Shown piece by piece: positions 4,475-24,289 of a stretch of DNA of 64,000 nt. The stretch is from Rhodospirillaceae bacterium (GTDB lineage: Bacteria > Pseudomonadota > Alphaproteobacteria > Dongiales > Dongiaceae). How positions within the stretch are numbered: the stretch's first letter is position 1; every line of letters starts with the position of its first letter. The stretch is taken from the NCBI GenBank assembly GCA_008012315.1, contig SSEL01000058.1, positions 62,001-126,000 of the forward strand, read 5' to 3'. The position numbers and the translations under genes were made by a program. Under the pieces are notes generated by a model. The model searched no databases and was not told where the DNA came from. It saw only the letters and a program-made list of their open reading frames with translations.

Positions 4475-4548
4475 GCGGGTGTAGCTCAATGGTAGAGCAG
4501 AAGCTTCCCAAGCTTACGACGGGGGTTCGATTCCCCTCACCCGCTCCA
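4475..4548 (+). tRNA. tRNA-Gly, anticodon CCC
   Basis: A complete cloverleaf of 74 bases with encoded CCA. The acceptor GCGGGTG pairs with CACCCGC, the D arm is GCTCAATGGTAGAGC, the anticodon loop TTCCCAA gives anticodon CCC, and the T arm is GGGGG-TTCGATT-CCCCT. Its 3' half, from the anticodon loop on, is the left attachment repeat of the integrated element, so the present 3' half was probably supplied by the element on integration. Confidence 0.95.
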
Positions 4549-4568
4549 ATGCTTTCAATTGGTTAGCT
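4505..4568 (+). repeat. Left attachment repeat (tRNA-Gly 3' half plus flank)
   Basis: A 64-bp direct repeat matching 23875-23938 with three mismatches (4522, 4536 and 4560). It begins in the anticodon loop of the tRNA, a common crossover position for tyrosine integrases. Weaker similarity runs on to about 4615, including an ATCCGGAAAA-type motif. Confidence 0.92.
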
Positions 4569-4621
4569 CCTATTTCGATAGAACGTTTGGTGGCTATCCG
4601 GAAAAAATCCGGAAACTCACC

Positions 4622-11932: not shown

Positions 11933-12345
11933 GGCGGATGCTTAGCCAATGACGAAACAGCATTGAGCGTGATGATGTAGTATCCATTCCAGTCCATCGG
12001 CGCCTTCAATCGGCAAGGCGGTTTTTTCGCCCCCTCACAGACGTAAGCCTATTCACGCATGCCCCCTAGCCGAGCAGGCCCGTCTCGACCCTTTCTCGGC
12101 CTTCTTTCCCGCCTTCTCATGGCACGCCCCGACAGATAAGGGACTCGTCGGCCGAAACGCGAGAGTGTTCGATTTTTCGTCAAGGTGGCAGCTGGAAATG
12201 ACCCGACAAGATCTGCGAAGGATGGACCATCCCGGAAGCGTTATTGATCCCGGAGGGCACTTTGTGATTTCAGCTGGACCTAATTGCGATGGAGAACTCT
12301 CGATGGTGCGATGTTATTCAACCGCCACCGAGCGATCCCCGCCTG
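11933..12345. repeat. Element repeat, copy A (about 410 bp, diverged)
   Basis: Matches 20533-20946 in the same orientation, collinear with many substitutions and few gaps. Shared landmarks in order: AAACAGCATTGA, TATCCATTCCAG (copy B has GCATCCATTCCAG), CGGCAAGGC with a T-tract hairpin, CCCTAGCCGAGC, CGGCCTTCT, GGCCGAAAC, CCGGAGGG and GATGGxGAACTC. The hairpin stem differs between copies (GGCG/CGCC here, GGCCG/CGGCC there) but stays paired. It covers the 3' end of the gene at 12280-12681. On the minus strand it could encode a short peptide starting MDWNGYYIITLNAV, similar to one in copy B. Confidence 0.8.
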
Positions 12346-12681
12346 TCGCGCTCTAGTCAGCAACCACTTTTCGTTCTCGTCGTAAAAGAGGCAACGTTCC
12401 TCATCGAGCTTAGCGCGTAGTTCTTCTGGATTCGGAAGGTCGAGCTCTGCTCGGACAGCGTTGACATAACTGAGATCAGCCGGCGTTAGCCCAGCATAGT
12501 AGCCCCAAGAGGGAGAAACTGCGGCACCGACTTCCACTAACTTCCGCAGGGCTGCACCCACAGCCACTCCTGGGAGTAGGCTCGCAATTTCCGCTCGCGA
12601 ATGCACCTTATTGTCGTCAAGAATGGCGAGAATTTTGGCTCCAATTGATCCAGCTCGAGGTCTCCAATTTGGCCTGAGCAA
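12280..12681 (-). CDS. Winged-helix-like protein, possibly the 3' part of a frameshifted gene
   Basis: A frame with no good start (TTG 12681 is the first candidate). It contains a helix-turn-helix-like stretch, SRAEIASLLPGVAVGAALRK then VEVGAAVSP. The last about 25 residues (ENEKWLLTRARQAGIARWRL then NNIAPSRVLHRN) resemble the Rep C-terminus (AENWLLTKPQQESVDQWRLE then NLVPSRVPHRD), because they lie in the shared repeat. The frame stays open far upstream without an ATG, and the overlapping 12537-12980 frame supplies one, which suggests a frameshift or a remodelled fusion. Function unknown. Confidence 0.45.
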   Translation of the reverse strand: MLRPNWRPRAGSIGAKILAILDDNKVHSRAEIASLLPGVAVGAALRKLVEVGAAVSPSWGYYAGLTPADLSYVNAVRAELDLPNPEELRAKLDEERCLFYDENEKWLLTRARQAGIARWRLNNIAPSRVLHRN

Positions 12682-17923: not shown

Positions 17924-20047
17924 TCACTCAGCTGCTGCCGCGGATTTCGAGGGCAGCTTCTCGATCTTAAGCTTCGCGAAGAACGCCTGATTGCGCAGCG
18001 ATGCGTTCTGAAGCACCTGATCGTAGGGAATGAATTCGAAGTAAGCATTTAGATCGTCGAAGTACGCAAATCGCCCGTTACCGTCCGGCGTTGGCTTATA
18101 AATTTGATGAGCTTTCAAAAGCTCATAGAGTTGATCAGAGGGCTCCGCAATCAAGAAGCAATGAAATGGTGTCTTGTCATTGATATCTGTGATGCGCTCG
18201 CCATCATGGGTGTAACAGCTTTTAGACTGCAAAGACTCGATGTACTTACGAATTTGGAAAACAGGGTTGTCACCAGGAGCTCCCGAATAGGTGACCTTAT
18301 CTGGGCTCTTAAACTCGACGATTACTACTGGATCTTTTGTATTCTCGCGACGAAACAGCATGGGGCGCTTGAATATCGCTAAGTCAGGCTCACTCCCATC
18401 ACCGTAAAGCTTCATGTCCTTCAGAGCTTCACGCCGCAATTCCTCTTCCGCAGTCACCGGCTCCTGTTCTTTTGCGAAGGTTCGAATCTGGCGGTCCGAC
18501 GTGATGTAAGTGTAATAGGCGAGGCGATCGTCTATTAGCCAAAGGTTATGGTCGTCGTAGTTGAGCGTGTCACTCGTCACACCCAACGGACAGAATATTT
18601 CATGAACAATGTCTTCTGGCTGGTGCTTTGAAGTTGCTTTGTCGATCTTTCGGCGCTCTTTTAAAATTTCGATCACCCAGCGGCGCTCGACCACATACTG
18701 GGCGAGAGCGCTCTTTTCTGTCTCTCCAAGAGCCGCGGTTAGGTCGTGCACGTGCTTCGCGAACTGCTCGTCCGACATACTTGCCGAATTGACTTGGAGC
18801 TTCTCCACCTGTTTATACAACGCTTTGTTGGCGCGGTGCCGCCTGATTGCCACATCTTGAACGAGCTGTGTTTCATCCCAGTTTAGCGGCATATCTTCTA
18901 CGTACTCTTCGACGTTAGTAATCCCCGATGCGTATAGCGGATTCTCTTGCAGCACGCGCTCAAGCATCTCTCTATTCCGCTGTCGTCTCTCCTTCAAATA
19001 GGGGTCAAGAAACGCTTTCGTCGTGTCCACAATGAGCTTGGTTACTTCTTCGAAGTCGATGTCACCGAGATCGAACCCAGTACGTTCATGGTTCAAGGCT
19101 TCATCGAACATTGGACCCGAAACGAGGCCGATATAGATTAGGCTGCCATGTTCCTCGCTGGGGAGCGACTTAAGACCAATAACATCGTCAATTTTGTTAG
19201 TAACGACGGACCTATCCGCTGCACAGAAAATCAAAGAGTTGCCAATGGGAGCCAGCTTCTTCGGGAGTAGCAAATGCATGATAAAGCATTTGTGGCTGTC
19301 ATCGATTGCGACCTCGACCGGCTGCTTGTCGCCTATGATGGAGTCAAAAAAGAAGTCGGAGAGATTGGTAGATCCCTCTTCATCGATTAGATTGATCTTG
19401 AGACGCTTCGGCTGAGCGAAGAGGGAGATAAAGTGAGCAAGGAGACTGTTGCGAATGTCACCTGGTTTCACGTGGGCCTTCGCCGAAAACCGATCGTCGA
19501 ATTCTCGCAAGTTTACGATAGTTCCCGTTTTCGTAGTGGCTGGCAAAACCGCTTCGTTGTATGCGTCAAAGGGGCTCTCATTGTTCAATCTGAAATCAAA
19601 TGATCTTTGTACTTTCTGCTCGCCGCGTTCAAAGATGGATACTACTTCATTCTTACGAAACACCTTAAGCCACGATAAACGGCCGATGCCGCGTCCCTTT
19701 TTGGCCGCTCGATACTCCGTGTCCAGCTCTTGAAAATGGAGAAATAGCGGGTCAGTCAGGCCTATTCCGTTGTCGGAAATAACGAAGCCTTCAACGTCCC
19801 CATGTTTAGGTCTCGGACCCGGTCGATCTTCGTCAATGGGTCGCCGAAGCACCTCAATGCTCACAATGCCGTCGTCGGCCCATGTATCGGGGAAGCGCTC
19901 TTGTATTGCGTAGAGCGCGTTTGTAACCGCTTCGTAGATTGGCATCATTGAGTTCGACGCCGTTGGCGGTAGGTTGAAGTTGCGGACGCGCCCTGTAAAG
20001 CTATGGCGCATCTCTGGCTGTTTGAAGTCTATTATTTGGCTCGTCAT
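17924..20047 (-). CDS. GHKL-ATPase / PD-(D/E)XK nuclease fusion, putative single-gene defence protein
   Basis: A protein of 707 residues; ATG 20047 is chosen for its GGGGGAAGGA ribosome site. The N-terminus is a GHKL (HSP90/MutL/MORC-type) ATPase: N-box EAVTNALYA (39-47), SDNGIGLTD (91-99) and the lid GRGIGRLSWLKVF (118-130). A middle domain of about 350 residues, partly helical, follows. At about 555-590 is a nuclease core: EPDLAIFKRP (Asp) and VVIVEFKSP (Glu and Lys of ExK), then a conserved Gln in FQIRKYIESLQ. MORC-related GHKL proteins fused to nucleases are known from defence islands. Here it stands alone, without an adjacent methylase. It has its own promoter region upstream. Function is inferred. 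Confidence 0.8.
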   Translation of the reverse strand: MTSQIIDFKQPEMRHSFTGRVRNFNLPPTASNSMMPIYEAVTNALYAIQERFPDTWADDGIVSIEVLRRPIDEDRPGPRPKHGDVEGFVISDNGIGLTDPLFLHFQELDTEYRAAKKGRGIGRLSWLKVFRKNEVVSIFERGEQKVQRSFDFRLNNESPFDAYNEAVLPATTKTGTIVNLREFDDRFSAKAHVKPGDIRNSLLAHFISLFAQPKRLKINLIDEEGSTNLSDFFFDSIIGDKQPVEVAIDDSHKCFIMHLLLPKKLAPIGNSLIFCAADRSVVTNKIDDVIGLKSLPSEEHGSLIYIGLVSGPMFDEALNHERTGFDLGDIDFEEVTKLIVDTTKAFLDPYLKERRQRNREMLERVLQENPLYASGITNVEEYVEDMPLNWDETQLVQDVAIRRHRANKALYKQVEKLQVNSASMSDEQFAKHVHDLTAALGETEKSALAQYVVERRWVIEILKERRKIDKATSKHQPEDIVHEIFCPLGVTSDTLNYDDHNLWLIDDRLAYYTYITSDRQIRTFAKEQEPVTAEEELRREALKDMKLYGDGSEPDLAIFKRPMLFRRENTKDPVVIVEFKSPDKVTYSGAPGDNPVFQIRKYIESLQSKSCYTHDGERITDINDKTPFHCFLIAEPSDQLYELLKAHQIYKPTPDGNGRFAYFDDLNAYFEFIPYDQVLQNASLRNQAFFAKLKIEKLPSKSAAAAE

Positions 20048-20083
20048 TGTCGTCCTTCCCCCAATGCAGGTTACGACTTTCAC

Positions 20084-20673: not shown

Positions 20674-20946
20674 CCCTAGCCGAGCCCTCCTTCACGCGCG
20701 GCCGTCGGCCTTCTTTTCGGCCTTCTCACAGCCTGCCTCGACGAGCAAGGGGGTCGCTCGGCCGAAACACGCGTCTTCGATTTCTCGTTACGGAATGCCA
20801 GCTGGAATGAACCGGCAAAATTTGTGAGCATGGGGACTACCCCCGGAGGCATCATTGCCCCCGGAGGGTATTTTGTGTCCGTTGCACCTAATCGCGATGG
20901 GGAACTCTTGATGGTACCAGGTTCTCCAACCGCCACTGATCGACGC
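20533..20946. repeat. Element repeat, copy B (about 410 bp), at the rep 3' end
   Basis: Partner of 11933-12345. It spans the last about 20 codons of rep and 350 bases downstream. It holds a T-tract hairpin (GGCCG-TTTTTT-CGGCC) and a direct subrepeat CCCCCGGAGG, repeated about 25 bases apart. Its position next to an HUH Rep makes a replication origin or a single-strand recombination site a reasonable guess, not a demonstrated one. Confidence 0.8.
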
Positions 20947-21613
20947 TCTCCTGTTGCGGCTTAGTCAGCAGCCAATTTTCGGCCTCGTCTCTGCTCATGT
21001 GACCCAAGGCGATAGTCATACGGGCTCTATAGTGATTTGGATGCACCGTGAATGACTTCTTTCTTCGAGTGCGAGCTGCTTCACTGAGAAATTCCGAGGC
21101 ACCGCACCTTTTTCCGATAACTGTTCCTCCAAATTCACGGCGAATGCCAAGAGCAGTACATATTTTTTTGCCGGCACCTTTCAGCATGTACCGAACAGTA
21201 CCATTTGCCCTCCCAATCTCAGTACCTGGTGGAAATTGCTTTGATTTCACAATTCCTTGCTTTACTCGACAGCCAGCTTTCCGAAGCCATCGTCGCTGCA
21301 GCCGACCGAACTCTTCGACAAACGTCGGAGGCACATGAACCAAATAGTGTCCATGGATACCGGTCTTACAGTGGTTTTCAAGAACCCAGACTTGAGCGAA
21401 TGGAACACCTCTTCTGCGCAACCACTCACAAGCCAATTTCCAAAAGCGTGTTTGGGCTGCATGGAAATCAGCTGAAACCTCTGCCTGCTCCCAATTGATC
21501 GTTATCCACCGGTTCAGTCGATAGCCGACGCGGAAAGCTTCATCGACGCTCTCAACAATATTTCTCACACCACGGAGAGAGAGAGCGACCGATAGGCTAT
21601 TACCATCATTCAT
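20888..21613 (-). CDS. HUH-type rolling-circle Rep-like protein
   Basis: A protein of 241 residues from ATG 21613 (GTG 21628 is an alternative). It shows the order of HUH endonuclease motifs: NRWITINWE (motif I strand), then VWVLENHCKTGIHGHYLVHV (Glu plus the His-x-His pair), then GTVRYMLKGAGKK (motif III, with the Tyr-x-x-Lys arrangement of single-tyrosine Reps). Such proteins nick one strand at an origin and drive rolling-circle replication of phages, plasmids or satellites. Its start overlaps the stop of the upstream small gene by 8 bases, implying coupled translation. The C-terminus lies inside repeat copy B. Confidence 0.75.
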   Translation of the reverse strand: MNDGNSLSVALSLRGVRNIVESVDEAFRVGYRLNRWITINWEQAEVSADFHAAQTRFWKLACEWLRRRGVPFAQVWVLENHCKTGIHGHYLVHVPPTFVEEFGRLQRRWLRKAGCRVKQGIVKSKQFPPGTEIGRANGTVRYMLKGAGKKICTALGIRREFGGTVIGKRCGASEFLSEAARTRRKKSFTVHPNHYRARMTIALGHMSRDEAENWLLTKPQQESVDQWRLENLVPSRVPHRD

Positions 21614-22019
21614 CAGACGGCCCCCCACTCACACTGTGTAACGATCGTTTCTGTATCCGACGCTTGTACAAGTTCAGCCGTATAGCTACGGCAATCATCG
21701 TCGTATTACTCGTAAACCTATTCGGTAATTCCTCTGCTTGCCTTACCCATATATGTGCTCGACAGCTCACATAGAGGAACTTTGCTGATGCAAATCTCCA
21801 GGCTAAGGCGATGGAATACCGGCAATAACTCGGTTTATGGCTCACTTCCTTGACCTGCAGCGGCCGCAAGTTTTGCAGTCTGCCAAAGTTGTTGGGTGTC
21901 AGCTGATATCCCCGGCGCAAGTATTCGCCGGCCCGCAAGATAAAGGCCAGACAATTAGGCATACCTAATACCATGCAGTTCGAGCATTGGAAGTTTCGCC
22001 CGATGCGCAAGACGAGCAT
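21606..22019 (-). CDS. Small basic protein between alpA and rep
   Basis: A protein of 137 residues from ATG 22019, starting MLVLRIGRNFQCSNCMVLGM with a CxxC pair. The sequence is basic and has no recognised family. What supports it is the layout: TAATG joins it to the alpA stop, and its TGA overlaps the rep start, so the three genes form one coupled unit. The protein sequence itself has low complexity in places and it could be a spurious frame. Confidence 0.45.
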   Translation of the reverse strand: MLVLRIGRNFQCSNCMVLGMPNCLAFILRAGEYLRRGYQLTPNNFGRLQNLRPLQVKEVSHKPSYCRYSIALAWRFASAKFLYVSCRAHIWVRQAEELPNRFTSNTTMIAVAIRLNLYKRRIQKRSLHSVSGGPSDE

Positions 22020-22440: not shown

Positions 22441-23739
22441 TCAATTACAAGGGAGCATTTGTAGTTGGTCGGCGACCGGCCCGGTAAGTCCTCCAATTTC
22501 TTCCTGCGGATTTTCTATGAAGCGCGGCGAGCTTCTACGAATAACGTCCGAGACATAACTTTTAGCGAGATGCCCATAATGGCGTTCGACCATCCGGGTA
22601 TCCCGATGCCCCAGGTTCTGGGCAACGACAATAAGTTCGGCGCCATTCATGATGGTAAGGCTTGCCCAAGTATGGCGCAGTCCATGAAAAGTAAAGGAAG
22701 GGTCTAAGCCAGCGGCACGAAGGGCATCCTTAAAGGGACGATGCTGATGATCCTGTTTCCAGGGCGATCCATCTGCTTTCTTTAGCAAGCTATCGCTCGA
22801 TGGTCTGTTTGCTACGAGCCTGATGCAAAGAGCTATTCCTTCCTTATTTAGAACGATATGTCGGGATTTGCCGCTTTTGCTTTCTCTGACATGCAGCGTT
22901 CCGCTTTCTGGATGGAAATCAGAGACCAACAATGCTCCGAGCTCGGCGTACCTCCCGCCGGACAGAAGAGCTAGCTGCACCAAGTCCCGCAGATCTGGCG
23001 AACAGACCGCGAGAAGATGCCGCGCTTCCTCGATCGTCAGATAGCGGGAGCGCGCGCGTTCTGTATTTGGAAACGCCTTTACACGAGCCCATGCTTCGTT
23101 TCGAGCGATGAGCCCTTCCGACCACGCTCGATTCAAGGCCGCCCGAAGGATAGTCAATTGCCGGTTTGCCCGCAGGCGACGTTTTCTCTCGGCCTCCTTC
23201 AAATTTGCATCTTCTGCCCGAAACCTTCTTACCTTGGATCGCCCACTTCTCAGTCGTGGAGGCTCAGAAGCAATTTGCTGGTGCCATTTACGAATCAGCA
23301 CGGTTGTCAGCTTGGCAACGTCGATATGACCAAGGTGAGGAAGAATGAAAGCGTTTATGTAGATTTTGATATGGCCATATGACTTTCGGTGCGTTCTGAT
23401 CCACTCGAGATAGTCAGACATACATTCCGAGATGGTGTATGGCCCACGACGCTGAACGCCTATTGCTTGCTGATCGAGCCACTCCCGCGCTAGCTGCTGC
23501 GCTTGATCAAAACTTAATATTGTCTTCCCGTTAGAAGGAATTGCATCGTCCGCTGCAGCCAGCGCCGAATAACGATGCTTACTTGATAGACTGTCCCAAT
23601 ATCGAACCGTCCAGGATCCTCCCTGCGCCAAGCGGCGATATCCTAAATGCCCTCCTTTGGTCAGCCTTACCCAATATGGCTCTGCTTTGGGCGACAATTT
23701 CTGTCGCGCCGCCTTGCTCTGCAGTTGCACGATTCGCAC
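22441..23739 (-). CDS. int: Tyrosine-type site-specific integrase
   Basis: A 432-residue tyrosine recombinase, starting at GTG 23739. The SAM-like core-binding domain occupies about 95-230. Catalytic residues are visible in order: Arg in LLSGGRYAELGALL, Lys in the beta-hairpin VRESKSGKSRHI, His-x-x-Arg in FHGLRHTWASL, His in NLGHRDTRMV and the nucleophile Tyr in ERHYGHLAKSY. It starts about 135 bases from the right attachment repeat and reads into the element, the standard position. It is intact, so excision remains plausible. Confidence 0.95.
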   Translation of the reverse strand: MRIVQLQSKAARQKLSPKAEPYWVRLTKGGHLGYRRLAQGGSWTVRYWDSLSSKHRYSALAAADDAIPSNGKTILSFDQAQQLAREWLDQQAIGVQRRGPYTISECMSDYLEWIRTHRKSYGHIKIYINAFILPHLGHIDVAKLTTVLIRKWHQQIASEPPRLRSGRSKVRRFRAEDANLKEAERKRRLRANRQLTILRAALNRAWSEGLIARNEAWARVKAFPNTERARSRYLTIEEARHLLAVCSPDLRDLVQLALLSGGRYAELGALLVSDFHPESGTLHVRESKSGKSRHIVLNKEGIALCIRLVANRPSSDSLLKKADGSPWKQDHQHRPFKDALRAAGLDPSFTFHGLRHTWASLTIMNGAELIVVAQNLGHRDTRMVERHYGHLAKSYVSDVIRRSSPRFIENPQEEIGGLTGPVADQLQMLPCN

Positions 23740-23874: not shown

Positions 23875-23938
23875 TTCCCAAGCTTACGACGAGGGTTCGA
23901 TTCCCTTCACCCGCTCCAATGCTTTCAATCGGTTAGCT
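23875..23938 (+). repeat. Right attachment repeat (displaced tRNA-Gly 3' half)
   Basis: Copy of 4505-4568. Two of the three mismatches (23892 A for G; 23906 T for C) fall on the two partners of one T-stem base pair, so the stem is preserved as A-U instead of G-C. This is probably the original host tRNA 3' half, displaced by integration. Confidence 0.92.
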
Positions 23939-24289
23939 TCTGTTTCAACAAATCGCTCGGCCGTCATCCGAAAAATCCGGAAACGGCGAGTTCTCTTCCG
24001 TCATCGCGCCAGTCCCCCCTAATGCGTCTTATCCGCGGCACGTCCTGGTGTCTCTTGTTCTCGGCACGCCCTCGCAGCAAGGCGCGATGACAATCGCGCA
24101 TGCGGCGGATGTCGACGGTGCTTCCCGGCCGAACGAACCTGCCTTCATGGCACAGGCTCAGCTGCGGCAATTGCCCGGCCATGGGCCACCGCATGCGCAT
24201 GGCAGATATTCTCCGGCCGAAGCCATGCCGACATCGCCCGCCGGCCGGGCCTACTTGCGCGCCAAAGCGCAGCGACCCATTTCAACTTC
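23939..24289. other. Non-coding stretch right of the element
   Basis: About 350 bases. The first 50 resemble the left flank (ATCCGAAAAATCCGGAAAC against ATCCGGAAAAAATCCGGAAA). The rest presumably holds the promoter of the protease gene. No gene seen. Confidence 0.4.

Follow-up and report, generated by a model that had tools for sequence, protein, structure and literature searches.

The window, a stretch of 64,000 nucleotides from an alphaproteobacterial contig, contains a 19.4-kb island of low GC content, inserted in a tRNA-Gly(CCC) gene, which carries as cargo a gene encoding an ATPase-nuclease fusion protein. The GC content lies between 0.46 and 0.56 within the island, versus 0.57 to 0.68 outside it. 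The features of the island and of the encoded protein are as follows (the evidence for each assignment in parentheses).

4475..4548, plus strand: tRNA-Gly(CCC), the insertion site of the island
4505..4605, no strand: left flanking direct repeat (att-like), overlapping the 3' part of the tRNA-Gly(CCC)
17924..20047, minus strand: GHKL-S5-linker-PD-(D/E)XK protein of the paraMORC3 / VcSduA type, 707 residues
17960..18640, minus strand: PD-(D/E)XK nuclease domain, residues 470-696 (alignment, model, fold search)
18391..18490, minus strand: clade-specific insert, approximately residues 520-552 (alignment; low pLDDT in the model)
18650..19060, minus strand: long helical linker, approximately residues 330-467 (secondary structure of the model)
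19070..19490, minus strand: S5-type transducer domain, approximately residues 187-325 (alignment, fold search)
19490..20000, minus strand: GHKL ATPase domain, approximately residues 17-186 (motifs I-III, model, fold search)
22441..23739, minus strand: tyrosine integrase, adjoining the right repeat (Phage_integrase, 3e-24)
23875..23975, no strand: right flanking direct repeat (the two repeats 84% identical over 101 nt)

The coordinates of the fusion gene include its stop codon. Its ATG at position 20047 is favored over an upstream GTG at 20083, because a clear purine-rich ribosome-binding site, GGGGAAGGACGACA, lies just ahead of the ATG. In one relative (locus L140), an identical tRNA-Gly is retained beside the OmpA flank; no junction of the right-hand flank with the tRNA-Gly was observed in the stretch examined, and an empty insertion site is thus only partly supported.

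Two other ORFs of the island, 20888-21628 and 12280-12681 (both on the minus strand), share nearly the same C-terminal peptide (WRLENLVPSRVPHRD and WRLNNIAPSRVLHRN, respectively), and one of the two matches the REP_ORF2/G2P replication protein at 1.6e-5, just below the curated cut-off.

In terms of its catalytic motifs, the 707-residue protein carries motif I of the GHKL fold as E39xxxN43, motif II as D92NGIG and motif III at G117 to G122 (GRGIGR, 118-123), while its nuclease domain contains E478, H482, D506, the EPD triad at 553-555 (with D555), E578-F579-K580 and Q598. Among 43 aligned homologues, D92, G94, G96, G120, G122, R322, E478, H482, D555, E578, K580 and Q598 are invariant, R279 of the S5 domain is nearly so, and E39 and N43 are conserved in at least 90% (one row of the alignment is truncated at this point). 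On the evidence of the aligned sequences, this conservation exceeds chance by far. The intact GHKL ATP site and the PD-(D/E)XK core with its EFK motif, both proposed in the sequence-only reading, are thus borne out across the family. The insert at approximately 520-552 is confined to the window protein and two relatives, from Phenylobacterium (L001) and from an alphaproteobacterial metagenome-assembled genome (MAG; L002).

By itself, the window protein produced no significant match in sequence searches of Pfam, NCBIfam, PADLOC and the PDB; the profile comparison with catalogued defence systems that had been proposed earlier (PADLOC, 2023) was thereby carried out, and it placed the protein in none of them. 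The missing matches are attributed to divergence, since 16 of the 22 family members scanned do match HATPase_c, and the assignment of the GHKL domain is therefore secure. The PADLOC matches among the relatives were only single and weak, for example LmuA at 4e-4 and TmtA at 3e-3.

The full-length AlphaFold model of the window protein has a mean pLDDT of 84.3. In a fold search its N-terminal part matched structures that combine GHKL and S5 domains, namely TRAP1/Hsp90, GyrB/ParE, MutL and SMCHD1, with E-values to 1.9e-10. In a profile alignment with Mlh1, the CAxxRxV and ERTxF motifs of the family fall on the S5 region near "NHRLV" and "HPTK" of Mlh1/MutL, which suggests that R322, within the ERTxF motif, is the basic residue of S5 that reaches the ATP. 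When modelled alone, the C-terminal domain reached a pLDDT of 88.7 and a pTM of 0.86; its fold matches were weak, and the top ten were all PD-(D/E)XK nucleases, among them McrC, NucC, FokI and MspJI.

MORC, MutL and TRAP1 share with this protein an ATP-driven GHKL-S5 clamp, but differ in their C-terminal modules. A MORC protein proper is ruled out by the absence of the MORC-specific S5 motif, GhXhhpXXRhl (PMC2292703), since the residue eight positions before R322 is F314 rather than glycine. The closeness of the fold to MutL and Hsp90 might also accord with a MutL-like nuclease serving DNA repair or housekeeping, with no role in defence. Such a function is highly improbable, in view of the mobile setting of the gene, its defence neighborhood (described below) and its patchy distribution: a homologue occurs in 7 of 385 genomes of the class and in 2 of 61 genomes of close relatives, the window genome being counted in both figures.

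The nuclease domain resembles that of the Shedu protein SduA (PF14082; PDB 8ti8, 8ti9 and 8ps4) in its PD-(D/E)XK core, in the order of its residues (E, D, ExK, Q) and in its C-terminal strand-helix. In hhalign, the nuclease profile scored 88% against Shedu over 146 columns, versus 0.1-0.6% for reversed or shuffled controls. It also scored 75% over 55 columns against HSDR_N_2, so that the link to Shedu is not specific. SduA_C/DUF4263 (PF14082) is absent from the 25 listed of the 26 families that the 22 family members matched at E<=1, the unlisted one matching a single member, and Shedu structures were absent from the 50 best fold matches of the C-terminal domain. For these three reasons the protein is filed under the paraMORC3 / VcSduA type, and a Shedu-specific assignment was not adopted. 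Another group of proteins combining GHKL and SduA_C domains (L045 and L046) has the same domain order, with a full-length profile match of E 6e-13 over 420 columns, but these are shorter (589-614 residues), show weak matches to SduA_C (the Pfam Shedu family) and, in L046, carry the corresponding residues as E31 and K508.

The term paraMORC3 was applied to proteins with GHKL and S5 domains followed by a C-terminal domain of the restriction-endonuclease fold with an E-D-ExK signature, a subset of which, in proteobacteria and bacteroidetes, occurs as standalone genes (Iyer, Abhiman & Aravind 2008, PMC2292703). The window protein has all of these parts, i.e., an N-terminal GHKL domain whose ATP motifs are intact, the adjoining S5 domain and a C-terminal nuclease with E478, D555 and E578xK580; no difference was found on comparison with the 2008 description, which is a comparison of architecture and not residue by residue.

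A member of this type has been characterized experimentally. VcSduA, from VSP-II WASA of Vibrio cholerae, likewise consists of an N-terminal GHKL and a C-terminal PD-(D/E)XK domain, and this single protein protects alone (Adams et al. 2025, PMC12137116). Its defence is abolished by either E27A or K557A, and its authors tied it to paraMORC3 and proposed it, via DUF4263, as Shedu type I-D (PMC12137116). GrwAB, described in the same paper, was considered as a relative and rejected, being a DUF262/DUF1524 system.

The motif-I glutamate and the nuclease lysine are E27 and K557 in two homologues of the present set (L054 and L058), E27 and K556 in L022 and L023, and E27 and K558 in L025 and L029; E27 and K557 of the first pair align with E39 and K580 of the window protein. 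VcSduA shares with the family its similar size, the E27/K557 positions and the sequence of GHKL and PD-(D/E)XK domains in one chain. Judged by residue numbers, size and architecture, VcSduA and the window protein very probably belong to one family, VcSduA lying within its gammaproteobacterial clade. The window protein departs from the VcSduA type in the numbering of its catalytic residues (E39 and K580) and in its insert, and it is only 25-27% identical to the members of the VcSduA-like clade (L054 and L058). In the tree, it forms a three-member alphaproteobacterial clade with the Phenylobacterium and MAG proteins, apart from the VcSduA-like clade.

By sequence, then, the window protein is a divergent member of an already described family of GHKL-nucleases, and neither its domain combination nor its stand-alone setting defines a new type of system, both having been reported in 2008 and 2025. 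Of the earlier proposal of a novel single-protein defence system, the stand-alone GHKL/PD-(D/E)XK fusion and its plausibility as a defence protein stand, whereas the novelty is largely lost to paraMORC3 and VcSduA; yet the match to the characterized system, at about 25-27% identity, is not a close one.

Relatives of the window protein include those of Phenylobacterium aquaticum (70% identity) and of the alphaproteobacterial MAG (58%). The family as a whole spans Alpha- and Gammaproteobacteria, Actinomycetota and Bacteroidota, and its genes are located on Ti and other plasmids, on viral contigs and in tRNA islands. Homologues were found in 58 plasmid records, at 43 viral-contig loci and in one phage record; 30 of the 58 plasmid records are conjugative. 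A Vibrio-type homologue, used as query, found no match in an E. coli genome search.

This frequent residence on mobile elements, including conjugative plasmids, phage and viral contigs, would also be expected if the protein served mainly in conflicts between elements, attacking competing plasmids or conjugating DNA on behalf of whichever island, plasmid or prophage bears it. Such a role is considered rather unlikely, since cargo of mobile elements is equally normal for phage defence and the anti-phage activity of VcSduA has been demonstrated (PMC12137116).

In the window, about 20 ORFs were scanned between 1.4 and 29.6 kb. None of these encodes a methylase, as the sequence-only reading had noted, and no partner gene for the GHKL-nuclease was recognizable nearby; among the island ORFs scanned, no clear defence gene was recognized besides the GHKL-nuclease gene itself. 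A methyltransferase linked to the gene, as in a restriction-modification (RM) system, is accordingly absent from the scanned ORFs. Elsewhere in the family no neighbor is constant, and the adjacent genes vary among phage genes, RM and Abi genes and recombinases.

The surroundings of the plasmid homologues are nevertheless enriched in defence genes, which lie within 8 kb of the homologue in 8 of 11 plasmid loci and comprise a methylase, Abi, type I RM (twice, once together with Shedu), TIR, CBASS, RnlAB and LlaJI. Control stretches, located half-way round the same 11 plasmids, contained defence genes in 1 of 11 cases, or in 2 of 11 if a HEPN protein is counted. The excess corresponds to a Fisher p of 0.008-0.03, based on counts made by hand from annotation text, which are approximate.

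Two of these neighborhoods bear on whether the protein acts as an accessory subunit, i.e., a clamp-nuclease that assists a separately encoded RM or helicase system, as proposed for most MORC and paraMORC proteins, whose genes usually reside in RM operons (PMC2292703). In Salinivibrio, the homologue comes immediately after a type I RM operon, and in V. fluvialis another lies just behind one. We regard an accessory function as unlikely for the window protein, given that its scanned surroundings encode neither methylase nor helicase, that the neighbors change between loci and that VcSduA needs no partner for protection.

Individual loci show further arrangements. On the V. fluvialis plasmid pIDH5335-1 (L023, 6619-10013), the homologue, behind the type I RM operon, overlaps an annotated Shedu nuclease gene by 4 bases, and the canonical Shedu and the GHKL-nuclease are probably co-transcribed. 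A DUF3800 gene overlaps the GHKL-nuclease gene on an Acinetobacter johnsonii plasmid (L025, 7986-11185) and lies near it in L018; the DUF3800 protein is a possible optional partner. In one contig (contig 3 of G290; L007 and L013), the GHKL domain (260 residues) and the S5 and nuclease domains (414 residues) are encoded by separate ORFs, 842-1624 and 1621-2865 of L007, with a 4-base overlap; the split, at approximately query residue 220, reflects a form of the system encoded by two genes or else a frameshift.

On Agrobacterium Ti plasmids (L024 and other records), the family member has TIR, VapC and ABC-3C genes around it and lies close to the replication genes of the plasmid. In the Phenylobacterium element (L001, 3825-7097), a 1090-residue protein is encoded near the GHKL-nuclease gene, which begins like a NERD nuclease and contains a P-loop ATPase (judged by eye to be STAND/Avs-like), and the element also bears relaxase-like and ArdC-like genes. 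In phage vB_RanS_PJN03 (L028), the homologue (UXN81045.1) is annotated as an N-acetylmuramoyl-L-alanine amidase, a label that similarity to the family does not support.

The gene in the window is probably a real and, by prediction, functional defence gene. We favor, as the likely though by no means certain reading, a single-gene restriction nuclease of the paraMORC3 / VcSduA type, directed against phages or other invading DNA and carried as cargo of the tRNA-Gly island. The following scheme draws on the biology of MutL, Hsp90 and Shedu for the closure of the dimer around DNA, for the trigger and for the order of steps, and presumes that the window copy is active. Upon binding of ATP, two chains would dimerize via their GHKL domains, with E39 of motif I serving as catalytic base and a basic residue of S5, probably R322, touching the gamma-phosphate. 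The S5 domain and the helical linker would next shut around the DNA as a clamp of the MutL or Hsp90 kind, and either this closure or hydrolysis would lead the C-terminal pair of PD-(D/E)XK domains (D555, E578 and K580) to cut it. By analogy with Shedu, the mark of foreignness may be free DNA ends, which are the first candidate trigger because type I Shedu is itself a sensor of DNA ends (PMC12904381).

In this scheme, the foreign DNA would be degraded directly and the cell would not be killed. PD-(D/E)XK effectors gated by an ATPase are known from other systems, and this counts in favor of an abortive-infection effector, in which a phage trigger would set off indiscriminate DNA cleavage and cell death. 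We deem that outcome quite improbable, since cultures expressing VcSduA survive phage at every tested multiplicity of infection, with no signs of abortive infection (PMC12137116).

The alphaproteobacterial clade may conceivably form a functionally distinct branch of the GHKL-nuclease family, in which the insert just before the catalytic D555 would confer a DNA trigger or target other than that of VcSduA, such as a plasmid or one specific kind of phage DNA end; this is a doubtful proposition.

The window protein and its relatives widen a defence family that is already known but has received little study, and in which the 2025 report covers one experimentally tested member. PADLOC-DB (2023) and Pfam either miss members of the family or see only their ATPase; with a profile built for the family, annotation tools could recognize them. 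Because the clades are so diverse, it is testable, by comparison of members, what the GHKL clamp senses before it licenses the nuclease.
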